A DNA stretch of 64,000 nucleotides, from NCBI RefSeq assembly GCF_030463565.1, contig NC_134660.1:2679501-2743500 (forward strand), in the 5' to 3' direction. A model generated the notes under the pieces. The model was not told where the DNA came from. It saw nothing but the letters and a program-made list of their open reading frames with translations, and made no database searches. How positions within the stretch are numbered: the first letter of the stretch is position 1; every line of letters begins with the position of its first letter. The position numbers and the translations under genes are program-made. Of the stretch, positions 13,901-51,448 are shown one piece after another. The DNA is from Pelecanus crispus (lineage: Eukaryota > Chordata > Aves > Pelecaniformes > Pelecanidae).

Positions 13901-16900
13901 AGTTACCAGGGTGATTGCAGCATCATCTTCAGGCCCAGAATATTTGAAGCCAATTCGATGTTTAGCCATATCTGCAAAGTATTCTTTAGCCTCCTTCGAT
14001 GTGCTGGTACCCAAACCTGCAGAGACAGTACTAGTTAATCCTAATAACTTCTTGCTTAAATTAAGTTGCGGTTCAAAGAAATATTTCGCTATGCCTAGTT
14101 TTCTGTGATGCATCGTATAAACGTACAGCACGAAGATGACTTACTGAAAACTTACGTTACTTTAAAATGAGATGTAAGGTATCACAAAAATCACAAGAAT
14201 TACAGATAAGTGAGCAGTTGCATGTTCTACTTTTGGATTTTGTCTGCAACTCCTTTAGATATCCAAAATGATTAACTGCAAATTGGAAATGATTCCTCAT
14301 CATCCAGCCATTGTTCTGCAGCTGGCAACTTTCTTATTGCTATTAAGCAATTCTGGAGTAAGTACTCAGCTTACAGTGCTAACAGTACACAAGGACTGTA
14401 CTGTGGAAAATAGCACATAAAACCGAGCATAATTGCTTAAGAGGGCTGAAAGAATGGTTACCTACAATATTGTGGTTCCATTTTGAGAGATTTTATTGAG
14501 ATTTTATCCAGTTAGAGGTTATTGTTTCCTTACTTTTATATTTTACGTTGCATGTATTTGTAATCAGGATATCTTACAAGGGAAGAGGCCTGGGGGTCAC
14601 CCGGTCCAAACCCTTTCTGCAAAAGCAGGACTAGCTCTGAATTGAATCATGAATGCTCTTACTTGGATCATTTAATCCCACCGTATTAAGTTTTCTACAA
14701 ACCTTTATAGTACTTGATCTTCCATGAATTGTAGTTCTGTGTACTGTTTTTCCATTCTTCAAATTCAGGAATGCTGTAGAATGCAATTTCTTCTTTGTTT
14801 TTAGAGGCCTACAAAGAACAAATATTTTAACTGTGAAATGAGAGGCAGATTTGGACCAATGGATCCTTACTCATTCACCTTACCATCTACCCAACCCTTA
14901 CCTTTATGATGGGAGTGATAAATTCCTCCAGAAAGTTGTGTCTTAGAAGAGATGGCCAGTTGTGATGGATGAAGTTAATCAGCAAACCTTTGATATGCGA
15001 TCCATCTTGATCCTGATTTAAAAAGAAAAAAACCCCATATTTAACCAGTGACATGATGGAATTGACAATTGTTAGCTTAATAGCAAATGATTCTATAATT
15101 CCAGCTAACTGATCCGATTAACTTTCACTTCTAAAAAGGTGACCATGTGTTGTTTAACTACTGAAAATTAAGAGAAACAGAAAAGGCACATTCTTGGTGA
15201 GAAAAGGTATCAAGGACTGGTCAAGGACCTTGAATCAGCAGACTGGAAAGACAGTATTTAGCTATTTGGTGATGCTACTCTGTTTTGTTTTGTGGCTGAA
15301 AAGACATTATGACCCACTAAAATATAGAATGATAAAAAGAAATGAATACAGACAATTAGGTACAACAATGGCAGTGGAAGAAAGGTAGCATTTTCTTCTT
15401 TCCCCTCTATTCAAGTGCTGGTTTTTTTCCTGTCCCATTTTTCCATTTTAGTGAACCTAACCTGATCTGTCATAATCATAATCTTTCCATAGCGAAGACT
15501 CTTTAAAGATTCTTGATCTTCATAGTTCTTTTTATATTGTAAACCCACAATCTTGATGATGTTGTTGATTTCAGCATTTTCCATAATCTGGAAAAGATCA
15601 CACGGAATAAAAACTTGTCTTTCAGACTTAAAATGTAGCTCAAAAAAGTCTAAAATTATCCATAAGTATACCGTAGACTGAGCTTTGTCTTGTCAGTGTC
15701 TTTTTATAATTTCTAAACTGAAGTCTAATGCTTAAATTATTCTTGATTATCCCAAACATTTTCTAGTCCACAACACAAATACTATCCCTTCAGGCAAAAC
15801 ACCGAACCGGACTTAATCAATATTCCCGCTTAACCAGCAAGGCAGGCTGAAGATGAGACTAGACTCAGGCGTTTAAGACACTGCTCCTATGAGTTACAGT
15901 GTTCCAGATGTTCAGCTCCACTGACTCAGTTAAACCACATTGCATTACACAAAGCATACCGCGCCTCTTCTAACATGTAGACTGTAACGATTTTCCAACT
16001 AACCTGCTTATGAGTAGCTTCTCTGACGTTGAGTATTTTCCCACGAAGGGGAAATACTCCATATTTGTCTCTACCAACCACTCCCAGACCAGAGACAGCC
16101 AGTGTTTTGGCTGAGTCTCCCTCAGTCAGGATAAGTGTACATTCTAAAGAATTCTTGCTGCCTAAAAAAAAAAAAAAAAATCAAGTCAATTTTCTAATTA
16201 AGAAGTGAAATTAAAGCCTTCATACTCACAAATTGAATGAGAATAAATATCTTCTAATACAGGTTTTGTCGCACTACACGTAGTAAATTGGGATAAACAT
16301 AGCAAATGGGACTGTAAAATGGGGATAAACTATGATTACAGGTTTTTTCATTTTCCCTTAGGAGACAATTCTGTCATTTGTCTAATGAACAAGTTTTAAC
16401 TCTTTTTGAATGAATTGGTTACACAGGATGCAAAACACTTACCAGCATCATTGGCATCATCCAGCTTAGGAACACCCTTAATCTTAGTGTGTTTCACAGC
16501 TGAACATTTCTTATTCAGCTGGCTCTGAGCTTTAAATTTTACCCAGTTTAGGATACTCTCAACAATGCCACAGCCAAGTGCCTGCAGTACAAAAAATAAC
16601 CCCAAACAATTGTGGGAAAAGCCTTAACAATGACAGAATTTTAAGTTATATACTTTTTCTTTAGTTCATGACATTACTTCAAAAGTATGTATTTGTCACG
16701 TTAAATGTGAGATGCAGCTTTATAGACATCTTGATTATCCATGTATATCAGTACTTACAGCTTTAATAAATTTTTCACTCAGTTTACAGGTTGAGCCAAA
16801 GTTCTTTGCCTGCAGAGTCATGTTCTCCTTAGTCTGAGAGTCAAAGGTTGGGTTTTCAATTAAGGCATTCACGAAAAGCCACATGTGGTTCTTCACCTAT

Positions 16901-22396: not shown

Positions 22397-23359
22397 TCAC
22401 CACATGTGCCGGTAGGGAAAGGCCACTTCCATGCAGAGCACCACCAGCGCCTCGGAACAGTTGTGCCGCTGCCCGGCCAGCAGCCTGCCCTCGCCCAGGG
22501 GGGCGGCCAGGCCCTCCCCAGGGCCGGAGCTGCGCCAGCCCTGGCAATCCCGCCTGCGGGCTTGGCCGCCCCGCGCCGTGGAGCCATGCCAGGCCAGCCG
22601 GCGGGGCCTGCGGATGGGGACAGGGGTGAGAGGGGCTGGGGGATCCCCTCTGGGGCACCTCCGGCTCTTTGCACCAGCTCCCGCATCCGTGCAAGCACCA
22701 GGGGCTGGGGGGGACCCGCTGCAGCCCCCCCACCCCTGTTCCTGGCGCGGGTGCGTTTGTTCGGGGACGCCGTGCCGGCGCCCGCCCCGCGGCCAGACTC
22801 ACCAGAGGGGATCCGTCAGGACGTTGCGCCCGTTGAAGGAGTAGATGGGGCCCCGCGGGGCGGCACCGGCTTGGCCCTCGAAGAGGGAGCTCCAGGACTT
22901 GGCCAGCAGCTGGCCCTGCGGGCACAAGTAGCGGTGCTGAGATGGGGGCTGCGGGCTGGGGGGCCGGGGTGATGCCCTTGTCCCAACCACTTGTGGGGAA
23001 TAACTTGCTCTGGGATCCTCCTGGCTCCCCAAAACACAAGTGCTGAGCATGGCCGGGGTGCAGCAGCCCCAGCGCAGGACCAGGCAAGGCTCCCCGAGCT
23101 GATGCTCACTGGGGGCCGCGGGGCTTTGCCGCCGGCAGCCCCCATGGGGGACGGGGGTACCTGCCTTCAGGTTGACAACAGGGAGGGTCCTGTCCGTCCT
23201 CTTGACGATGGAGACCAGGTCCTGGGTGGGGGCCGACAGGAATGCCCGGAAAGTGCCATAGAGCCGAGCCTCCTGGGACTGCCGGTAGCACTGCAGGTCG
23301 GCGCCGCGGATCCCGCTCATGTCGCCGGCGAGGGGCACGTTCAGGGCGGCCAGGCGGAG
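22397..23359 (-). other. Endostatin-like C-terminal exons
   Basis: Three exons (23359-23165, 22915-22803, 22607-22397) encode residues 663-834. Recognisable endostatin signatures are [48 protein letters not shown] and a tail with CSEALVVLC. The four cysteines that form the two endostatin disulfides are present (about 686, 786, 815, 823). Of the zinc ligands of human endostatin, no N-terminal His-x-His is present and the later His before VALN is replaced (LRLAALN). An N-glycosylation sequon (NCS) includes the third cysteine. Confidence 0.88.
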
Positions 23360-26300
23360 CTGGGGAGGGCAGGCATGGCAGGGGGGGAGGCTCGGGCATG
23401 GCCAGGCGTCGAGGTCTCTGCTCCCCCTTTCTCGGGAGGGTGCGAGCCTCCAGCAGTGCCGGCCAAGCATGGAGGGGTCCCCCGGGCACCTCTCCCCCCT
23501 CTCCCATGGCTGGGCCACTGTCTCCCACCCCCGGAGCCAGGGAGCAGGGCATTACTTACTGATGGGATCCGTGGGGCGATGGTGGTTAGGAGGGTCTGGG
23601 GCAGCCCTTGTCCCTTCTCCTTCTGGACCTGGAACAACACGGCTCAGGTCAGCCCAGGGACATCCATCCCAGTGGCATGGGTGCCATGGGTGCAGCACCC
23701 TCGCCAATCCCAACACAATCCCAGGCTCTGCGTGTGCCGGGCCGGCGCTGCCCTGCCAACAGCCTGTCTCCCCGGCACGTCCCTCCCGGCGTGACCAGAC
23801 TGGCAGCAGGGCTCACCAGTGAGTCTGTCGGGGTCAGTGCGGGCGGCCCCGTGTTGGGACCTCTCATCTGCACCCGCTTTGCCTCCTGGATGGAAAGGAG
23901 AGGACAGTCCTGCAAGGGCCTGTCCCCCCTGGCAGGCAAAGGAGGGCTCTGTCCCCTTGCTGGGATGTGAGCAGACCCGGCAGCTGCCTGCACCCCTCAC
24001 CTGGTACCGTGGGGTGGAGGCGGAGGGGTCGTCACCGGCAAAGAACGACTCCGAATCCTCCAGCTGCCCAATGCAACAAGAGGGATGGGTTAGGGGGGAA
24101 CCAGCTCCTTCCCTGGGCTCTGCTGCCCCAGCACCAAATCCAGCCCGGTGCCGGCTGCCAGGGCTGCAGCCCGGACCCCCCTCCCTGCGAGGGACCCCGA
24201 GGGGCATCCTCGGTGCACGGTACCAGGAGGCGGCTCCAGCCGGTGGGGGTTCGGAGAAAGGCGCTGCTCCCTTCCCGCACATAGACCAGGCTCCCCTCGG
24301 GCACGGCGCTGCCCGACTTCAGCATCAGCTCCTTGGACTGGAAGACCCACGTCTGGCGCTGGGGGGGATGGAGAAGTTCACGGCCCAGCTGTGGCGTGCG
24401 GGGCAGCCGGACAGCCTGGGGGTCTTGCCCGCGGCCGCAGGCAGGACGCACCCGGAGATCGGCGCGGGAGTCCGGCGGCTCGGTCCGAGGGATGTCAGCA
24501 TCTGGAGAGCCCAGAGAGGGTGGGGGGTCACAGGGCACCCCGGCGCAGGGGCTAGATGCTCCCGCGGGAGCTGGCCCCGCAGGGATGTGGGGGGGGCTGG
24601 GTGGGAGAGCCAGTTGCCGTGCCGGGGACCCGTGCAGGGTGGCAAGGCCCCGGCGCCCGGGAAGGGAGGCAAGACTTCACAAAAGGTGTTTCCAAGGAGG
24701 CTGGAGCCCCCAAAACACCCGAGAAATGCCCTTACCTGTTGCCCAGCCTGCGTCGGCGGCTGCCTGCAAAGGCAAGCGGAGCCTGTTACTGCCGCCGGGC
24801 ACAGGGACACCCTTCCCAGTGCACGGGGAGGGGACAGGATCTCCCTCAGGGACCTCGAGGCTTACCGGCTGCTTGCAGGGTGGCTGGGCACGGATGGGGT
24901 AAACCCTCTGGAAGCAAAGACAGGAAGGTTTGTGGGGAGCGTCTCGTGCTGTGCATGCTCACATGTGTGCGCGCTGTGGCACAGGCATGTGCACAGCCCG
25001 TGCTGGGCCTTACGTTGAGGTAGAGGAGACCTGGTGCTCCGGGGGGGCCGGGGGGCCCAGGGGGGCCAGGGTTCCCAGGGGGACCTCGCAGACCCTGCAG
25101 TGGAGCAGTGTGGAGATTGGACTGAGCTATTTTGGTGCTGCCTTTTGGGGTGGCAGCTATAAGCCACCCCACTGCTGTCCCTCATCCTTCCCACTCCGTT
25201 TGCCTCCCAGGGCTGAACCTCCCCGGGCCGGGGCAGCGCGCAGGCGCGAGCCAGGCAGTGTCTCTCACATGGGGGATGATCGCTCCATAAACCTCCGGCT
25301 CCTCTTTGCCGCCCTGCAGAGAAAGAGAGAGAAGATTGGGAGTGATCTCCATCCTCCCCCTCTCCATCCTCCATCCCTCCATCGCAGCTGGGGCTGTGAG
25401 CCCTGCGGGGCTGCCGGTGGGGTGAGCCGTGGCGTGGGGCACGCAGAGCTGCCTGGGCTCTGGCAGCAGGGTCCCCAAGGCCAGGCTGGGGTCCCCGGGC
25501 ACCCCTCACTGTGACGGGGCCCCACGAGCCCTGAGGACTCACCGTTTGGTACCCGCTGATGGGCACCCAGGAGCCGGACTGGCTGCCGGTGCTGGGGAAG
25601 GGGAGGTGGCCTGGTTTGCACCCGTGTTCCCCGTAGCAGCACCCCTGGGTGAGCCGCAGAGAGAGGCACAATTAGAGCCTGCGCTGGGTGGTGGGGATGG
25701 GTGCGTGCGCTGTGTGTGTGCACGGGCGCGCTGCACGCTTGCATGGGTGTGCACACGTGTGTGCGCTCCCTGCGTGCATGGGTGTGTGTGCACATGCGCA
25801 TTTGCATGTGCTGCAGGGGATGGTGTGAGTTGCCACCCACCCACCCCGTGCCCCAGCCCATTTTGGGGACTCTGGCAGTGCCACCGGGGTGAGGTGAAGG
25901 CTGGGGCTGCCCTGGCACGGAGAGGGTGGTGGGGGAGCAGAGGCAGCACACGGGGCTCAGGGGTTCACACTCAGGCTGTGGGAATGGGCCCCCCCCGGCC
26001 AGCTCCCCCCATGCCGGTGCTCGTGGCTACAAACCCGCTCTCCGGGGTCGCCCTTTTCTCCCTGGAAGGAGAGCAGAGAGGTCCTGTCAGTGCCTGGGGT
26101 TCTGCGGGTCCCCAGGCACTCCCGTCCCCCGGCACAGCGCTGTGCCTCACTCCACGGGGTAACCCCCGCCATGGAGCTGTTTGGTTTTGGCACGGGCACC
26201 GGGAAGTGGCCACGGCCGATGCTGTCCCCGTGCCCTCGCTGCCAACACCCGCCGCCCGTGGTGCCTGCTCCCCCGGCTCACCTTGGGGCCGGGCGGCCCC

Positions 26301-29221
26301 GTGGATCCGCGGTGCCCTGCGTGGCGCGAATCGCACTGGAAGGAGAGGATGTGCCGGGGTGAGCGCAGGGGCTGCCCCCCACACCCGAGCACCCGCAGCC
26401 CCAGGACCCCCTACTCACCCTGTAGTCCCCCGGCGGCCCCGGCGGCCCCATGGGACCGGGCATGCCTGGGGAGCCCATCTCTCCGGTCCGGCCAGGGCTC
26501 CCCGGCATGCCCGGCAGCCCGTGTTCGCCCTTCTCACCCTGTCGGCACACGGCGCACGGGGTGGTGAGCACAGGGGGTCAGCACCCCGTGTCTCCCTGGA
26601 CCCCGCAGCGGCAGGGCTGGGGCAGCCCCGGAGCCCTCCGACGGGCTCGGTGCCAGGGCAGAGCGAGCGGCTGGGGAGCCCAGCTGCTCCATCCCCACCC
26701 CGCTGGCGCTGGTCTGGCCCCAGGGCCATGGATGGGCTGGGCTGGGACCCCCTTACCTTTAGTCCAGGGAATCCTGGCTCCCCTCGGAGCCCTGGTTTGC
26801 CAGGGAGCGATGCAGGTCCTGCAGGACCGGGGGGTCCTTCGTGCCCAGGCACCCCGGGGGGACCTTGTGGGCCTGGGATCCCTGGTGCCCCCGGGGGTCC
26901 GTCTGGCCCAGCTGAGCCTGGAGACCCCAGGGGTCCTTCAGCTCCAGGGAAACCGGGTGGTCCCACAGCCCCTGGCGGGCCAGGGGGTCCTGGCTGCCCC
27001 TCCCGCCCGGGGACCCCCGGGGGGCCTTCATGGCCTGGGTAGCCAGGGGGTCCAGGCAGGCCAGGTGGCCCGGGGGGACCTGGGGGTCCTGGGTTCCCCA
27101 TAGGGCTGGACGCTCCCAGCTACATGTCGGGTTGGAGGCAGAGAGGAAAGAGAGAGCAGAGTCGGTGAACGGCCGCGTCCCATCCCCTGGGCCCCCTTCC
27201 CTGGGCTGCCCACCCCCGGGCTGCCCACCCCCATGGTCCCATGCCCCAGCCCTCCACGTCCCTGCCAGTCCAGCCAGGGATGGACACCGCAGCCAGTGCC
27301 ATCACCCACCAGCCCTGGCATCGCCCACCTGTGCCCCCCACCCTGGCACTCACCTCATTCTCCGATCCCTTGGGGAGGGCGGCAGACACGGGTGGGCTCC
27401 TGGCTCCCCAGGTGCCTGGTGGTCCCGGGGGCCCCGGTGGTCCCGGAGGACCTGGGGGGCCCCGGGGACCCTGGTGACCTGGCTGCCCTGGGCTGCCGGT
27501 CTTCCCTCTCTCCCCAGAAAATCCGGGCTGGCCTCGGTCCCCTGGGGACCCTCGGTCGCCTTTCTCCCCCTGTCAGGGAAAGACAGAGCCTGGCTCCTGG
27601 CTCCCGGCTCCTGGCGCTTTCCTCTGCTGGCACCAACCATGGGGACAAGCTGCCCCCCTGGCAGGGGACACCTGAGTTGTCCCCCCAGCCCAACCCCTGA
27701 AGTGAGAGTCCAAATCCTGAGCAGAAAAGATTTTGCACGGCCAAAAGAGCCAAGCGATTTCACCCAGCGGGACCCCGCGCCTCTCCCCAGGGGGGACCAC
27801 CGAACCTTTGGGCCGGGAAGGCCGGGAGGGCCGGGGCGCACGGGGCAGACGCAGCCGGAGCCGTTGTGTATCTGGAGAGGGAGAGAGCGGTGAGCGGTGG
27901 GACAAGACCCCTGGCTGCCAGGGACTGGCATGGGTGCCCTGTGCCCACCTCTCACCTGCAGAGCAGGGTCCGTCTTGGGGGCCAGGGGCACCTGCTGGGG
28001 CAGCCCCTTCGCCGTGGTCTGTGATGAGGAGAGGAGGGGCTGAGCGGGAGACCCCCCCCGAGCACTGTCCCAGTCCCCTGCAGCACCATCCCTGTCCTGC
28101 CCTGCCAGCCCGCGTCCCCCGGAGCCCCTCGCCTGGGTGCCCATCCCGGGCTGCCCCTCGCAGCCCTCCCAGGGATCAGGACCCCTCCACCACCTTGATC
28201 TGCAGGAACTCCTCTTCCTCCGCGCTCCCCTCGAAGATCTCCGGGGCGGCCGTGTGTCGGTGCTGCTGGGACAGATGGGGAGAGCTCAGTGCGGGGCTGG
28301 GGGGAATCTCAGGGGACCCACAGGAGCCTCCCGCAGCCATCGCTGCCCGCAGCCCGGGGTGGGGGCTGAGCCCCAGCGCTGCCGTGGGGCTGCGCCGTGC
28401 CGGGGGACGCCGGGAGCTGCCGCGGCTCCTTTCCAAGGGGCCAGAGGCGGCTGAGCCGCGGCTCGGGGCTGGAGCAGGGCACGCTGCCCTGTCCGAGCTG
28501 GTGCGGCTGTGCGGGCAGGGCACAGATAAGGGGAAGGACGTGGCGAGGGGCCCGGCAGCCGCTGGGGAGTTTCGGGAGGGCTGGGGGAGTGGGGGGTGGA
28601 TGCTGTCCGGGGAAAGGCACCTGGCCTCGTGTGCGCGGTGGGGCACGGCCCGGGCCCTTCGCTGCCCCCCTGGCAAGGGGGTCCCGGCGCCTGGGGGCCG
28701 TCGCCAGCGGGGGTTTGTTCAGCAGCACCTTCTGCGTGGGCTCCACGCCGCCAGCATCTCCGTCTACAGGAGCAAAGGGGCGATGGGGCGGGAGGCGGCA
28801 GGGCTGGAGGGGGACGGGGATGGCACAGCACTCCCAGCTCCCGGCACTCACCGCAGCTGCAGCGGTGCCACCAGCAGCCCCAGGTCCCGGCACTCACCGC
28901 AGCCGCAGCGGTGCCACCAGCAGCCCCAGGTCCCGGCACCCCACACCTCACCCTCCAGCCTTACGCTGGAGGCGTCCCCTCCTCGCTGCGGTGCAGGAGC
29001 TGGGGCTGCCAGGGAAGCCATGCCCCCGCCTCACCGTGCCTACCTTCCTCCCTGTCCAGGGCGGTCACCGTGGTGGCTGTGGGACCGGTGCTTGGATCTG
29101 GGGTGGTGTCCTCCGAGCCCAGGGGGTAAAACCACTGGGCCGTGGCGGGGGGCAGGCGCCCGACCAGCACCGAGAGGATGCAGAGCGTGCGGAGGAGGTG
29201 CTGGGGGCTGCCGGACCCCAT
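22397..29221 (-). CDS. Compact multiplexin-like (collagen XV/XVIII-type) chain, complete, 23 exons
   Basis: Predicted secreted collagen. Coding exons 5' to 3': 29221-29044, 28763-28621, 28265-28194, 28018-27956, 27871-27806, 27569-27354, 27119-26757, 26538-26419, 26335-26282, 26061-26035, 25644-25543, 25313-25269, 25094-25014, 24907-24866, 24763-24736, 24501-24452, 24358-24224, 24063-24001, 23885-23817, 23628-23560, 23359-23165, 22915-22803, 22607-22397. The sum is 2,505 nt, 834 residues plus stop, with all phases closing. Order: signal peptide (about 1-28), acidic Ser/Thr-rich segment (to about 152), interrupted Gly-X-Y stretches (about 160-434), a Cys-rich non-collagenous exon (435-468), a last short Gly-X-Y block (484-506), trimerization-like segment (551-595), hinge, endostatin-like domain (663-834). 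Mammalian XV and XVIII are far longer and have a thrombospondin-like N-terminal domain; none is visible here. I know of no named orthologue at this locus. Weakest points are a GC-AG intron, the weak donor at 28193 and the choice of N-terminal exons. Confidence 0.85.
24224..24358 (-). other. Trimerization-domain exon of the multiplexin-like gene
   Basis: A 45-codon exon whose product includes [26 protein letters not shown] and GWSRLL. This follows the pattern of the small NC1 trimerization fold in collagens XV and XVIII (a TF-x-K-EAML start, VPEG-x-L-x-YV middle, GW-x-x-VL end). This domain nucleates triple-helix assembly in that family. Confidence 0.82.
28840..28943. repeat. 46-bp tandem duplication in the multiplexin intron 1
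   Basis: Two nearly identical 46-bp copies start at 28840 and 28886 (one C/T difference seen), with a partial third copy at 28932. Each contains, on the minus strand, a strong donor-like sequence GGTGAGTGCC. No acceptor is seen that would make it an exon. Confidence 0.8.
29044..29221 (-). other. Signal-peptide exon of the multiplexin-like gene
   Basis: The exon begins at the ATG on 29221-29219 with a short polar stretch, then a hydrophobic core (LCILSVLVG) and a likely cleavage after PPATA before QWFYPL. A second in-frame ATG 17 codons upstream (MSQAPL) is possible but would push the hydrophobic core inward. The exon ends in phase 1 at GTAGGC and joins exon 2 to make an aspartate codon. Confidence 0.75.
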
Positions 29222-32987: not shown

Positions 32988-35900
32988 ATGCGCGGGGCCG
33001 CCGGGCGCGCTCTGCCGCTGCTGCTGCTGCTGCTGGCGGCGGCGGCGGGGCCGGGGGGCGGCGAGGAGGCGATCCAGTGCCCGCCGTGCTCGGAGGAGCG
33101 GCTGGCGCGTTGCAAAGCTCCGCAGGGTTGCGCGGAGCTGGTGCGGGAACCGGGCTGCGGCTGCTGCGCGACCTGCGCCCTCGGCCGCGGGACCGCCTGC
33201 GGCGTCTACACCGCCCGCTGCGGCGCCGGGCTCCGCTGCTACCCGCCCCGCGGCGTGCCGCGGCCCCTGCACACCCTCATGCACGGCCAGGGCGTCTGCA
33301 CCGACCTGGCCGACGTCGAGGCCATCCAGGAGAGCCTCCAGCCACCAGGTAAGGCCGGTTCTGGGTGGCCGAGGGGCGAAGGGTGGGTGCTGGCTTGCCA
33401 GCGGCGCCCCCCGCCCCGCCCCGAGCAGCCCACCTTCGCGCCGGCCTGCGCCCCGCTCGCTTGGCGGGAGTTGGGGCCGCGGGGTTCAGCGGGGACCCTG
33501 CGGTGCGGCGGGATGGGGGAGCCCGGGATGGGTGTGCACGGTGCGTGTCCCGGGGAGGGAGCAGCACTGAGCTGCGCGGGCTCCCGCAGGTGGGTACCGG
33601 CGGGTCGTGTTTGCGCCATCCTCATCCACCGCCGGCACAGCAGTGGCACAGCTGGTGGCACCGTGGATGCTGGAGTGAGGTGCTTCGCAGGGACGCGTCA
33701 CCCGCTGGGCCCCGGCTACGGAGTGCCCCTGGACGGCAGGGCAGCCCGCGGTCCCGCAGGCATCCGTGGCCTCTCAGGATGGACGGGTCCCAGCTGCCGG
33801 GGAAGCTCCCGTTGCATGGTGACCCCTGCACTGCCGCTTCCCCGGGATGCTGCCGGCAGCCCTGCCTGCACGGCCAGGAGGAAACAGGAAAGAGGCCTCG
33901 GGGCACCTGCTTCCCTCACAGGCAGGTCAGGCTGGGCTCTGTGCCGGGACTTTGCCAAGAGCTGCGTCCTTCCCGCAGCCGGGCAGGGTAGGGGGGTGTG
34001 GGCATCAGGCAGGGCCAGGCTGGAGAAACCCCCTGCCTGTAGGCTCTGCTCACGCCTGTCTGCCCCAGGAGCCTCTTGCGGGTGTTGATCGCGGCCCCCT
34101 GTCACCCCCGTGGTGTTTGGGCAGGGCCTGGGGGCCGGGAGCGGAGCCGGCGGTGCGAGCCCAGCCCCAGAGCTGCACAGGTCACATCGTGGCTTTGACA
34201 GTGGGAGCAGAGCCGCTCCGGGGGGCTGAGTGTGGAGACCTGGCCCGTGGGGCTGGCCTGTCAGTGGGTCTGGATGCCACGCTCCCCCCTTCCCCATCCT
34301 GTGGGCTGTGATGGGGACCACGTCCCCCAGAGCTGGGGAGCAGCATCCTGCCACGGGACGGTCCACAAACTGGCCTGGCCCTGTGTCCCTGCGCGGGGTC
34401 ACCCGGAGCTCCCCAAGGGGCAGAAGGGGCCGGAGCAGTGTCCATCCCTGCCCACGCCGAGAGCTGGATCCCGGCTCCATTCCCTCCTCACATGGCTGGT
34501 CCACGGCAGCTCCACCGGTGTCCCCACGGTGAGGAGGGCCCTTCATGGATGGGCCCCTCCATCCGCCCCTCTCCAGGGACAGGAGTTGGCCGCGAGTTCT
34601 CGGCATGGGGTCTGTTGCAGAGACCCCCTGCCCTGCCTGTCTGTCCTTATCCCACATCCTGCAGGAACTGTCTGGGCTCCCTGGCCCGGCGCTGCGTTGG
34701 GCTGCCAAGGCCTGTTGGTTTTGGCCGTGCCCTGTGTAACGCAGCATTTTTTCCCAGAGCCTTTAGGAAACAGACTTGCAGTTTTTTCCCTTCCTTCCCG
34801 CGGTGTTTTGGCCTTGCTGGGGATGGGTGGGTGGCCGTGGGAGCCGGGCTCACCCGCCCGGCACCGTGCCTGCCTGCAGCGTTGCAGGTGGCAGGACGGG
34901 GGAGCGGGCAGCGGCGAGCCCCTTAGCCCAGGACAGCCCGGCAGGACGCGGGCAGGACCCCCCGCAGCACATTGCTTGGTGCAGCCCTGGTGGGAAGGTC
35001 CCGGTGGGACGTCTGAGCCACGGGTCCCTGTCCCGCTCTGGCAGCCCGGAGCCAGTGGGAGCGTGGGGCTGGGGGATGCAGGCTCCATCGCTCCCGCCAC
35101 AGCCCTGCCTGGCACAGCGAGGGCACCCCAGCATGGCCAGTGCATCCGGCGGGTCCCCTCTGGGCAAGCAGAAGGAACTCAAATGCCTATTTAGGGGCAG
35201 GGGCGTGCGGAGCAGGTGCCCCCCTGGCTGCACCCGCGTCCCTTGGGGCTGAGCCCACGCGGGTGCTGGGCGAGCAGAGGCTGCAGCGGGCGGGCGGCTG
35301 GGAAGCGGTTAACACAGTAAACACTTTGTCTGGGGGCTCTGCCGAGGGGGGGGGGGCTCCGCATTCCAGGGAATAGGCTGGGATCGGCGGGGGCTGGGCT
35401 GAGGCTGGGCTTTCCGAGAGGCTGGGTGATGGCTCCCAGCCCCATCACCAGGAAAGAGCCTCTCGGCTCTCCCAGGGCTCACAGCACCCACGGGACGGGA
35501 CTTTCTAGGAAGCAAGGGAGCGGGTGGCCGCTCTCGTGACCCTCGTGGCTGCGGGTCTGGGGACCTTGTGTGCGGATCTGCGGATCTTGTGCAGGACCCT
35601 GGTCCCTGCCTCCTGCTCCCAGCCCTGCTAGCTCTGAGCTGGCTCCCGGGGCATCCCGCTGCTTGGGCTGGGAGCCCTGCGATGGGGCCAGCCCTGGGAG
35701 GTTCCAGCCACAGCTTTCCGGCACAGCCTGCGGGTGCCTGGGGGAGGTGATGGCTGAACCCATGTGTGGCAGCCGGGAAGAGGTGAGGACATTTTCCCCA
35801 GCACACATGACGAGTGATTTAATGCTGGGTAAATAATTGTGTCTGGGAAAAACTGACCTCGTGGGAGCTGCGTGCATCCCGCGTGGTTGCTGTAAGCAGT

Positions 35901-38900: not shown

Positions 38901-40504
38901 CCCTGTGGCAGAGCATGGCTCTACTCCCGGCTGCGGCACCCAGTGCCACCCTGGGCCTGGCGGGTGCTCAGCACCACCCCGGTGCAGCCCCGGTGCCCCC
39001 ATTCCTGCTGCAGCTCCTCAGAGGCAGCTTTTTGGGGGTTCTGGGGTCTTCCTGGGGCTCCCTGGCTGCGCATCCCAGCATCACCTTCGAGCTCCGTGGG
39101 TCCGGTGCTGTGGGTGAGCACCCAGTGCCTGGCAGCACGTGGCTGGCCAGGGCAGAGCCAGACCCTTGTGCCGTGCAGCACACCGGAGCAACTGCCCGGC
39201 GCTCTCTCAGCATGCATTTGCAATCCTACAATAACAGACGCGTGGCAATCAGCCCGTGAATCGTGGCTAATGAGTCATAAAAACTCCCAGGAGCCTTGCC
39301 CAGTGCTGCAGGGAGAGCTCAGCCCAGTGTGGTGGCAGGGGCAGGAGGGGACCCGGGGCTGGGGGTGACGCCTGTGGGGACCGGGGAGGGCGGTGAGGGC
39401 TCCGGCAGCACCAGCTGCACCGTGTGCCCGGGGGTGCAAGCCGCTCCGCAGGGCCCGGGGCACGGTGGGGGGCGCCGCCATCCCCGCGGGGCTGCCCTGC
39501 AGCACTGAGCCCCCTCCGGTCCGTGTCCTTGCAGAGAAGGAGGAGATCGACCACCCCAACAACAGCTTCAGCCCCTGCAGCATCCACGACCGCAAGTGCC
39601 TGCAGAAGCAGCAGGCGAAGCGGGTCAACCACGGCAACAAGATGCGCAACAGCGGGAGCCCGTACCACCGCGAGGAGACGCGGCCCATAGTGAGCACCGC
39701 GCGGCACCGTGGCGGGCGGCTGGCGCTGGGTGCCGGGGCGGCGCTGGGCTGGGGAGGGCAGCATGGGTGCTGAGCACCCCTGGGCCGTTCTCCAGCGCCG
39801 GCGGAGCCCAGGGCAGGAGCGGGGGGGTTTGATGCTGGTGCTTGTGGCACAGCCCCAGGAGTCGGGGTCCCGGGGCGCTGGGGCGGGGGCACGCACCAGC
39901 CCCGCTGCCGGCTCAGCCCCACCTTCCCGCAGGCGCAGGGCTCGTGCCAGAGTGAGCTGCACCGGGCGCTGGAGAGGCTGGCCGCCTCGCAGACCCGCAC
40001 GCACGAAGACCTGTACGTCATCCCCATCCCCAACTGCGACCGCAACGGCAACTTCCACCCCAAGCAGGTAGGACGGGCTCTCGCCCATCACGGGGGGCTG
40101 GGGGAGCTGCTCGCATGGGGTCCTTTTGCAGAGCCGGGAGCGGGGATGGACAGACGGATGGACAGGCGGGTGCCGGGGCACAGCAGGGCACCTGCAGCTC
40201 CTGGTTTGGGTGGGAATCACCCTTTGGGTGTTGTGGGGTCCCTTGCAAGAGCCCTGGGGTGTGACGGGGGTGGCAAAGCCCCTGTGAGAGCTCCTGGTCG
40301 CCCCAGCCAGGCAGCCTGCGGGGATGGGGCCGTGGGGGCCAGGCTGGGCGCCCCTCACCCAACCCGTCCCCTCAGTGTCACCCGGCGCTGGACGGGCAGC
40401 GGGGCAAGTGCTGGTGCGTGGACCGCAAGACAGGGGTGAAGCTGCCGGGCTTCCTGGAGCTGAAGGGGGACTTGGACTGTCACCAGCTGGCGGACAGCAT
40501 GTGA
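32988..40504 (+). CDS. IGFBP4: Insulin-like growth factor-binding protein 4, complete, 4 exons
   Basis: Secreted protein that binds IGF-I and IGF-II and limits their receptor access; pregnancy-associated plasma protein A cleaves it to release IGF. Exons: 32988-33348, 39535-39689, 39933-40067, 40376-40504. The sum is 780 nt, 259 residues plus stop (human 258). Exon 1 gives a Leu/Ala-rich signal peptide and the N-terminal IGFBP domain with QCPPC and the GCGCC signature, then YPPRGV and [11 protein letters not shown]. Exon 2 is the variable linker with [10 protein letters not shown], including an N-glycosylation sequon, and a Lys-Met-Arg site matching the human Met-Lys cleavage position. Exons 3 and 4 are the thyroglobulin type-1 domain with [17 protein letters not shown] and CWCVDRKTG. 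The ATG has a GCCGCC context. The C-terminus HQLADSM differs slightly from human. Confidence 0.97.
33349..39534 (+). other. IGFBP4: IGFBP4 intron 1 (6.2 kb) with candidate regulatory islands
   Basis: The longest intron of the gene. Against GC-rich background a few less GC-rich islands stand out. 36850-36960 has an AP-1 site TGAGTCA (36854-36860) and a CACGTG E-box (36870-36875). 38090-38210 is AT-rich. 38821-38880 has a STAT-type TTCCAGGAA (38861-38869). 39200-39290 has TTGCAAT and TGAGTCA (39271-39277) followed by ATAAAAA. I see no exon. Enhancer function is inferred from composition and motifs only. Confidence 0.45.
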
Positions 40505-46857: not shown

Positions 46858-48128
46858 CGGGCAGGGCACAGGCAGGAGGCAGGAGGCAGGCAGGAGGCAG
46901 GCAGGGCACAGGCAGGGAGCAGGCAGGGAGCAGGCAGGGAGCAGGCAGGGAGCAGGCAGGAGGCAGGCAGGGAGCAGGCAGGAGGCAGGCAGGAGGCAGG
47001 CAGGGAGCAGGCAGGAGGCAGGCAGGGCGCAGGCAGGAGGCAGGCAGGGAGCAGGCAGGAGGCAGGCAGGAGGCAGGCAGGGCGCAGGCAGGAGGCAGGC
47101 AGGGCGCAGGCAGGGAGCAGGCAGGAGGCAGGCAGGAGGCAGGCAGGAGGCAGGCAGGGCACAGGCAGGGAGCAGGCAGGGAGCAGGCAGGGAGCAGGCA
47201 GGAGGCAGGCAGGGAGCAGGCAGGAGGCAGGCAGGAGGCAGGCAGGGAGCAGGCAGGAGGCAGGCAGGGCGCAGGCAGGAGGCAGGCAGGGTGCAGGCAG
47301 GCGCAGGCAGGGCGCAGGCAGGAGGCAGGCAGGAGGCAGGCAGGAGGCAGGCAGGGAGCAGGCAGGAGGCAGGCAGGAGGCAGGCAGGAGGCAGGCAGGA
47401 GGCAGGCAGGGCGCAGGCAGGGAGCAGGCAGGGCGCAGGCAGGGAGCAGGCAGGAGGCAGGCAGGGCGCAGGCAGGAGGCAGGCAGGAGGCAGGCAGGGC
47501 GCAGGCAGGCGCAGGCAGGAGGCAGGCAGGAGGCAGGCAGGAGGCAGGCAGGGCGCAGGCAGGAGACAGGCAGGGCGCAGGCAGGCGCAGGCAGGAGGCA
47601 GGCAGGAGGCGGGCAGGAGGCGGGCAGGGAGCAGGCAGGAGGTAGGAGGCAGGCAGGGAGCAGGCAGGAGGCAGGCAGGGCGCAGGCAGGAGGTAGGCAG
47701 GAGGCAGGCGGGGAGCAGGCAGGTGCAGGCAGGGCGCAGGCAGGAGGCAGGAGGCAGGCAGGGCGCAGGCAGGAGGCAGGCAGGGAGCAGGCAGGTGCAG
47801 GCAGGAGGCAGGAGGCAGGCAGGGCGCAGGCAGGAGGCAGGCGGGGAGCAGGCAGGGCGCAGGTGCAGGCAGGGCGCAGGCAGGGCGCAGGCAGGGTGCA
47901 GGCAGGCGCAGGCAGGAGGCAGGCAGGAGGCAGGAGGCAGGCAGGGCGCAGGCAGGGCGCAGGCAGGAGGCAGGCAGGAGGCAGGCAGGGTGCAGGAGGC
48001 AGGAGGCAGGCAGGGAGCAGGCAGGAGGCAGGCGGGGAGCAGGCAGGGCGCAGGTGCAGGCAGGAGGCAGGCAGGGCGCAGGCAGGGTGCAGGCAGGCGC
48101 AGGCAGGAGGCAGGCAGGTGCAGGCAGG
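46858..48128. repeat. 11-bp minisatellite (CAGGCAGGGAG / CAGGCAGGAGG / CAGGCAGGGCG)
   Basis: About 1.27 kb of G-rich plus-strand repeat, on the order of 100 units by length. Three main variants of an 11-bp unit are interspersed, with rare shorter units such as CAGGCAGGTG and single changes. No unit contains a stop triplet in any frame on either strand, so open frames of several hundred codons appear on both strands; none should be taken as protein. Confidence 0.95.
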
Positions 48129-48690
48129 GCTGGACGGTGTGGTGCTGGGGCCCCTTGCCGGCTGCAGCGCGCACTGCAGCGGGTCCCATCCTGCATACCC
48201 CGTGGGGGGCCGGGGGTCCTGCGGGGCCAGGGATGCACAAGCCCGGGGCGCTGGGGCTGCGCTGCGTCCCCCCGAGCCGCCCGTGACCTTGGGGTGCCGC
48301 GTTCCCCTGGGTCTGGGGGTTGATGCTTTGCAGCGCGACGGGGACGGCACAAGGGGTGCAGAGCCCGCGGGGTCACGGGCTCGCCCAGCCCGGCCCCAGG
48401 CTGGGTGCTGGGTTTTGGCTGAGCAGGGCTTAGGGCAGGGAGACTCGGGGGGGGACAAAGCCATGAGTTTCTCATCCTGGAGCCGGGCGCTCCCCCCGCC
48501 CCACGCGGTAACTCCAATATCTGCTTTTATCGCTGCCAAAGAGCTGTTGCAGCTGGATGCCGTTACGCGGTCTGGCTGGAGGAGAGCGACTTTGTATGTG
48601 CAACGCATGCAGACGCGTTGCCGTTTGAGAGAGCAGAGCAATGTATTTCAGTTGCTAACGTCTCCGCAGTGTTTGCAGTGAGATAAACAA
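48129..48690. other. Sequence between the minisatellite and the TNS4 3' end
   Basis: GC-rich up to about 48500, then more balanced. No gene recognised. A canonical polyadenylation signal for TNS4 lies at its right edge. Confidence 0.4.
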
Positions 48691-49715: not shown

Positions 49716-51448
49716 CTACGGGCCCGGCAGGAGCTTGCACAGAAGGTCGATGACAAGCGACGCTGGCTGCACAGTGTCGTACTCCGCAAACAGGTGACAG
49801 AGGTTCTCCGAATCTGTCTGGCTTTTGGCCACAAACCCAAAGATCCTTTGAAAAAAGGAGAGAGAGCCTTATGTAGTTTGCATCCAGGAATCCAAAGGAA
49901 TACACTTAAACTAGCCCCAGCCACAAAGCAAAATCCCGGTTCCAGCAATTCTACCTTGGCCTGCTCCCCAATCACGTTTACTTGGAAGCAAAACAGCCGG
50001 GAGAAGTGTTTCTGGCAAGGCTTCCCCAGCTGTGAAAAGTTTCTTGAACGCAAGGTAGAGCCAGATATAAACTCACTTCCTGAGCCCAGAGCAAGCGAGT
50101 CACTGGGAAGGCTGATGGATTTGGACGGGGGCTTTCGACACGAGGGGATGCGGGGAATCGGGCGTAGCCAAACCTCTCATCCAAACCTACAGAGCAAAAC
50201 TCCCCACAAAGCTTCACCCATCTGTCCCACATCTCATCGTGCCACCACGTTAGCTTTTATCGCATCCCCCTCTTCATTCTTAAGCTTTGATTCCTTGCTG
50301 CTCAGCAAAGCTTTGCAATGCACCCGCTGGAGGCGTCTCCCCCCCGATTTCCACCGGCATGCTTCGGCTGCGGGAGGTCCCTGCGCAGGCCTTACCTCGA
50401 GGACTTGCAGTACTTCTGCCACCTGAGGGAAGAACAGAATTGGATTTGCTCAGAAGAGCGACATTTAACTCACTCCATCAGCTGCAAAGTCAAGGTTTAT
50501 ATTTAGCTAAACCCAGCGTATTAAGCCCAGGGCAGGGGCTGCACAGCCGACGGTTGGGATTTGGGATTTTAAGCTGTGCAGAGATGGGAGCAGCGGAGCC
50601 GGGCTGGGAACCGTGGGGAAGCGAACGCTGCGCGGCGGCTCTGACCGGCACGGACGCCCTCATCCCGCAGAGCGGCCGATAACTCACTTTCTGTTCTCGG
50701 GATCCATCCCGCAAAACCTGATGGCAGCCAAGGGGTAGTGTCGCCTGAAAAACACCCTGTCAGGGGGAGGAGGAGAGCCCGGCGTTAGAGGAGGAAGCGC
50801 CCAGACGGAGCTGGTGGCAGAAACAGGCATTTGCAAATTCAAGCCCTTCTCAAACTGTTGTGGGGGGTGGGAACAGGGGGTATGGGGGACGGGGAGTGGG
50901 GGTCCCGCTCCCCGGGGCCGGCCGCTGCGCTGGCAGCTGGCAAAGCGCAGGCAGCTCGTGGGTTCAGCCAGCTCCTGCCTCCCACCCGAGAAGTTGCCAC
51001 AAGCGTCACATAAAGCAGCATCGTGCCCTGTGCTGTAAACAGACGGGATCGAGTCCACCCCTGGATTGCAACACGGATCTGTCCTAGCAGGCCAGTTTTT
51101 CTGGCCGCGCTGCAGATCAGCGCGTTGGCAGGCTGAGAGGCAAGCAGAGAGCTGTGCGGTCACGGGCGAGCTGCATTTCCATGAGCATTTAACATCCCCC
51201 CTGCAGCTTGCCACCAGTGAGCCCTCGGCCGCGGCAGCAGCCCGGCACCCTGTCCTGACCCTCCCCAGGCAGCTCTTACTTTCTCTGGATGTCGGTCAGC
51301 GTGACTCCCTGCTCGGTCACTCTGAAGTGCACGAGGGTGGGTGTGGGCAGCATCTCCAGCTCGAAGGTGGACGAGACGGCTTTCTGGATGGCCGGGGCTC
51401 CGGTGAGCGTCTCCAAGTTCACCGAGTTGAGGTACAAGACGTTGCACA
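49716..51448 (-). other. TNS4: TNS4 PTB domain exons
   Basis: Four exons (51448-51280, 50756-50688, 50422-50396, 49845-49716). Landmarks are [61 protein letters not shown], and FGFVAKSQ with CHLFAEYD. The 27-nt exon at 50396-50422 is confirmed by phase on both sides. Confidence 0.92.

Follow-up and report, generated by a model that had tools for sequence, protein, structure and literature searches.

A probable third multiplexin-type collagen gene between TOP2A and IGFBP4 in the genome of Pelecanus crispus

Collagens XV and XVIII take part in shaping vessels, eyes and muscle as well as basement membranes; endostatin has been studied as an inhibitor of vessel growth. In the part available, a review of the family names types XV and XVIII together with several zebrafish paralogues of both, attributes one multiplexin gene each to the fly (Mp) and the worm (cle-1), and gives the latter two fewer collagenous domains than mammalian XV, namely five in a fly form and three in a worm form (PMC7852327). 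No third vertebrate multiplexin beyond the fish duplicates is described among the matches listed in the open-licence literature. Here we analyse a stretch of 64,000 nucleotides from Pelecanus crispus (contig NC_134660.1, positions 2,679,501 to 2,743,500 of the forward strand; hereafter the window, whose own numbering is used below), which carries a multiplexin-type collagen gene between TOP2A and IGFBP4. We consider it probable that the gene is an intact third multiplexin which codes for a short, secreted, trimeric collagen, and that the duplications of the early vertebrate genome gave rise to it along with COL15A1 and COL18A1.

Re-splicing of the minus strand from 29221 to 22397 joins 23 exons into 2505 nt, that is 834 codons and one stop with every junction in frame, and reproduces exactly the coordinates, exon number and protein length given in an earlier, sequence-only reading of this DNA. 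That reading had also proposed trimerization and endostatin modules of the XV/XVIII type, and Pfam recognises both in the spliced protein: Endostatin (PF06482, E 7.8e-53) at residues 663–828 and, placed before the hinge, Collagen_trimer (PF20010, E 3.1e-8, 34 bits against a cut-off of 23.8), besides five stretches of Collagen (E 5.6e-40). The protein contains five Gly-X-Y runs of at least four triplets, separated by interruptions that carry cysteines. Among solved structures, those closest in sequence are endostatin XVIII from mouse and human, together with the XV domain of mouse (E 1.3e-46 to 9.4e-45). The scarcity of collagenous domains recalls the descriptions of fly Mp and worm cle-1.

The open frame and the splice signals agree with this model. 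Introns other than intron 21 (21/22) are GT-AG; the donors match CAGGTAAGT at a mean of 6.2 of 9 positions, where the region's 265 GT sites taken together reach 3.7, and pyrimidines make up 79% of the acceptor tracts, compared with 49% over the full set of 460 AG sites. In the joined sequence, frames 1 and 2 hold 12 and 6 stops and the three antisense frames 5, 13 and 8, while 1000 base shuffles give a mean of 14.1 and a minimum of 4. Since open frames and splice sites guided the choice of exons, these figures do not prove the model independently; as far as the sequence can tell, the independent evidence for the gene model is homology, which rules out a chance reading frame. Translation could also start 16 codons further upstream, where an ATG lies in frame (about 29269). 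The introns measure 83–390 nt (around 200 mid-range), and owing to this small size the gene spans only 6.8 kb, in a region of 68–72% G+C. Intron 1 also holds a 46-base tandem repeat in 2.5 copies (28826–28939).

The 1.31-Gb genome was searched for paralogues, the new gene lying on a contig of 9.3 Mb (C18). All nine of the at least nine endostatin matches fall in three genes, located at 44.46 Mb of contig C5, at 70.41 Mb of contig C2 and in the window; by identity with chains in the PDB, the C5 gene is COL18A1 and the C2 gene COL15A1. Four matches to the trimerization domain were obtained, and the three above the cut-off lie in these same genes; the fourth (C2, 171666235–171666324, E 0.571) is below the cut-off and contains one stop. 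One intron just before the endostatin module and two within it are common to all three genes, alike in position and phase, so that the new gene is not a retrocopy. With COL18A1 it further shares the trimerization domain and an interrupted triple helix, and with COL15A1 the order of trimerization domain and endostatin. Where the new gene has three small linker exons, bird XVIII apparently has, by eye, a single long one.

The endostatin module is clearly divergent. It is 46.9–49.4% identical to each of five COL15/COL18 modules (47.0–49.4% for COL18A1 and 46.9–49.4% for COL15A1), as compared with 79.3 and 81.7% between bird and mammalian XVIII, 75.8% between bird and mammalian XV, and 60.0% between XV and XVIII of the bird. 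The four endostatin cysteines (C24, C124, C153 and C161), invariant in the five-row alignment, are retained. The calculated isoelectric point (pI) is 10.3, against 7.2–9.1 in the five other modules. The histidine of the LHL motif, a zinc ligand in endostatin XVIII, is replaced by arginine in the new gene, which makes zinc binding of the endostatin XVIII kind unlikely. A TSPN domain is present in COL18A1 of the same genome but was not found in the new gene with human and bird XVIII queries, which gave no match in a 110-kb stretch of COL15A1 either, a stretch that may end short of the domain; nor did Pfam detect one in six of ten minus-strand frames of at least 150 amino acids between exon 1 and 33.5 kb and in one shorter piece, a survey that misses short exons.

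Three unrooted trees were computed, the second including the trimerization domain and the third a human XV row. The XVIII sequences group without the new gene with support 100/100, and joining it with bird XVIII is rejected (approximately unbiased (AU) test, p 0.0225, 0.0169 with the trimerization domain and 0.0121 with human XV). A recent duplicate of COL18A1 is thus ruled out by the trees, and to this extent the earlier proposal of a third vertebrate lineage stands. In the first two trees the new gene joins mouse XV with support 55/29 and 56/26, and the XV sequences held together without it are likewise compatible (p 0.318, 0.467 and 0.381). As judged from these alignments, the trees leave its relation to XV open. 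Scans of viral contigs, genome contigs and phage records yielded neither outgroups nor contaminant orthologues.

The chromosomal setting bears on the origin of the gene. Four HOX9 matches mark four contigs, at 38.66 Mb of C2, 25.92 Mb of C5, 1.14 Mb of C18 and 2.75 Mb of C32, and the three multiplexins occupy three of them (C2, C5 and C18). C18 is inferred to be the HOXB contig from its TOP2A-IGFBP4 linkage. Scaled to contig sizes, the chance that the two other multiplexins would fall on two different HOX contigs is 1.8%, and on any HOX contigs 4.3%, for a comparison devised after the multiplexins had been assigned to their contigs. In human, each of the four HOX chromosomes is reported to carry IGFBP genes; in the part available, that paper does not contain the words collagen, COL15 or COL18 (PMC2566581). 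In the pelican, IGFBP-domain pairs lie at 63.95/63.98 Mb of C2 and 17.61/17.71 Mb of C5, and IGFBP4 lies in the window (19 matches in all, the others being on C2, C5 and elsewhere). PTB-domain genes that we take to be tensins stand near these loci, at 64.59 Mb of C2, 18.35 Mb of C5 and 51.3 kb of the window (11 matches in all, also on C1, C6 and C17), and the five TOP2 matches are on C2 and C18. For the new gene itself, the distance to HOX9 is about 1.6 Mb and that to IGFBP4 4 kb. The presence of three genes on three of four HOX-bearing contigs makes an origin in the early genome duplications likely, without proving it.

Several observations weigh against an intact third lineage of this age. 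In the genome searches, neither an IGFBP nor a PTB match was obtained on C32, the fourth HOX contig. On the 176-Mb C2, COL15A1 is separated from HOX by 32 Mb and from the IGFBP pair by 6.4 Mb; on C5, the corresponding distances of COL18A1 are 18.5 Mb and 27 Mb. The linker shows, by eye, no clear likeness to that of XV or XVIII. Intron 21 needs a GC donor (GC-AG, AAG|GCAGGT), and at introns 3, 5 and 17 the donors agree with only 4–5 of the 9 consensus bases; the reading frame holds at all junctions, but these sites qualify the ‘perfect phase’ initially claimed. In the trees, joining the new gene with bird XV is compatible with the data (p 0.504 and 0.446) and is what the third tree recovers (support 40/36). 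The XV group excluding the new gene appears in only 12–17% of bootstrap trees. Finally, the end branch of the new gene is very long (1.73–1.97 changes per column, against 0.05–0.17 for bird XV), and its position in the trees is accordingly unsure.

A rival reading is that the gene is a fast-evolving duplicate of COL15A1, specific to birds or sauropsids and relocated to this microchromosome. Besides the attachment of its branch near COL15 in the trees, the trimerization domain is nearer to human XV (E 0.0064) than to XVIII (E 0.39), and among the 38 columns where bird and mouse XV differ the new gene matches the bird at 10 and the mouse at 6, a slight lean towards the former. Such a duplicate would nevertheless have had to evolve at a rate far above that of bird XV, as the end branches indicate, and it would have had to arrive on a HOX contig beside IGFBP4. 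Moreover, the motif Gly-Ile-Arg-Gly (GIRG) is absent from bird and mouse XV and kept in the new gene and in XVIII, and the 18 columns that separate XV from XVIII are divided equally, the new gene having the XV state at 7, the XVIII state at 7 and neither at 4. As far as alignment columns can indicate, GIRG and this 7:7:4 split speak against a long branch from within COL15A1, and we regard that origin as improbable.

Alternatively, the locus may be what is left of an ancient third multiplexin, a relic in decay or without expression, as its fast divergence and the GC donor of intron 21 could suggest. At exactly that position, however, both COL15A1 and COL18A1 of this genome have a GT donor. The 834 codons contain neither stop nor frameshift, the splice sites are usable throughout, and 56 of the 83 columns invariant in the five COL15/COL18 modules are retained, including all four cysteines; a relic thus seems very improbable. 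It is another matter whether the gene already figures in public bird genomes as a ‘collagen alpha-1 (XV or XVIII) chain-like’ entry, to which we give an even chance. A gene of this kind would probably be picked up by automatic pipelines, but no paper on it is among the matches listed in the open-licence literature. Prior annotation touches the novelty of the finding and not its biology, and is compatible with a third multiplexin.

The domains, the placing of the introns, the sequence divergence, the diagnostic residues and the chromosomal environment all support the view that the new gene is a multiplexin-type collagen and forms a lineage separate from COL15A1 and COL18A1. It probably split off before birds and mammals diverged, and would have arisen as the HOXB-chromosome copy in the early vertebrate genome duplications. 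We lean slightly towards a broader picture in which vertebrates had at least three multiplexins after these duplications, with three HOX chromosomes carrying one each; the HOXB copy, small and perhaps devoid of TSPN, would have survived in birds, whereas in mammals it was either lost or has been overlooked.

If the gene is transcribed, its product would presumably be secreted by means of the signal peptide. The predicted chain would run from there through a non-collagenous N-terminus, Gly-X-Y blocks with cysteine-bearing interruptions, the trimerization domain and a hinge to the C-terminal endostatin module. Three chains may come into register at the trimerization domain and fold into an interrupted triple helix, presumably as a homotrimer. 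The trimer would be located in or near basement membranes, as collagens XV and XVIII are, and its endostatin-like modules could be displayed on it or freed by proteolysis. The high basicity of the module fits binding to heparan sulfate, to which it could attach. As to glycosaminoglycan chains, the protein has eight Ser-Gly pairs, whose surroundings are not acidic by eye. Should these proposals hold, a third natural endostatin, less than 50% identical to both others and lacking the LHL histidine, would reveal which residues matter; the history of the family on HOX chromosomes would be extended, and a gene added that mammals may lack.

Table 1. Exons of the multiplexin-type collagen gene and its polyadenylation signal, in window positions
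Feature	Position	Strand	Content
Exon 1	29044..29221	-	Start codon; signal-peptide-like hydrophobic stretch (putative, by eye); begins N-terminal non-collagenous region
Exon 2	28621..28763	-	N-terminal non-collagenous region
Exon 3	28194..28265	-	Acidic non-collagenous region; start uncertain by 3 nt (CAG|CAG)
Exon 4	27956..28018	-	Non-collagenous region
Exon 5	27806..27871	-	Cys-X-Cys, then earliest Gly-X-Y triplets
Exon 6	27354..27569	-	Collagenous, 216 nt
Exon 7	26757..27119	-	Collagenous, 363 nt
Exon 8	26419..26538	-	Collagenous
Exon 9	26282..26335	-	Interruption with Cys, then collagenous
Exon 10	26035..26061	-	Collagenous, 27 nt
Exon 11	25543..25644	-	Cys-rich interruption
Exon 12	25269..25313	-	Interruption
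Exon 13	25014..25094	-	Final collagenous block
Exon 14	24866..24907	-	Non-collagenous
Exon 15	24736..24763	-	Non-collagenous
Exon 16	24452..24501	-	Non-collagenous
Exon 17	24224..24358	-	Most of the collagen trimerization domain, residues 555-598 (PF20010 and own-genome search)
Exon 18	24001..24063	-	Hinge/linker
Exon 19	23817..23885	-	Hinge/linker
Exon 20	23560..23628	-	Hinge/linker
Exon 21	23165..23359	-	Endostatin module, part 1; GC donor at end
Exon 22	22803..22915	-	Endostatin module, part 2; phase 2 end as in COL15A1 and COL18A1
Exon 23	22397..22607	-	Endostatin module, part 3, and stop codon
Poly(A) signal AATAAA	22092..22097	-	About 300 bases downstream of the stop, same strand

The flanking genes named in the sequence-only reading were both found. 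At 16051, the minus strand carries a TOP2 exon whose best solved match is topoisomerase 2-alpha (E 7.4e-24), by a small margin over 2-beta (E 1.1e-22). IGFBP4 (33 kb, plus strand) matches its own solved structure at E 1e-40 and that of IGFBP5 at 4.9e-23; its N-terminal domain lies at 33078–33239 (plus) and the thyroglobulin-type CWCV motif at 40409 (plus), and it and the collagen gene are in head-to-head orientation, some 4 kb apart. The PTB-domain gene (51270–51446, minus) is taken to be TNS4 from its position, and the order in the window agrees with what we take to be the human order, TOP2A-IGFBP4-TNS4. Pfam assigned no family to twenty single open frames of the window, TOP2A and IGFBP4 having been named through solved structures. 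Between IGFBP4 and the tensin-like gene, a minisatellite at 46877–48129 repeats an 11-base unit about 117 times (consensus AGGCAGGGGGC), within a segment whose strand skew is strong.

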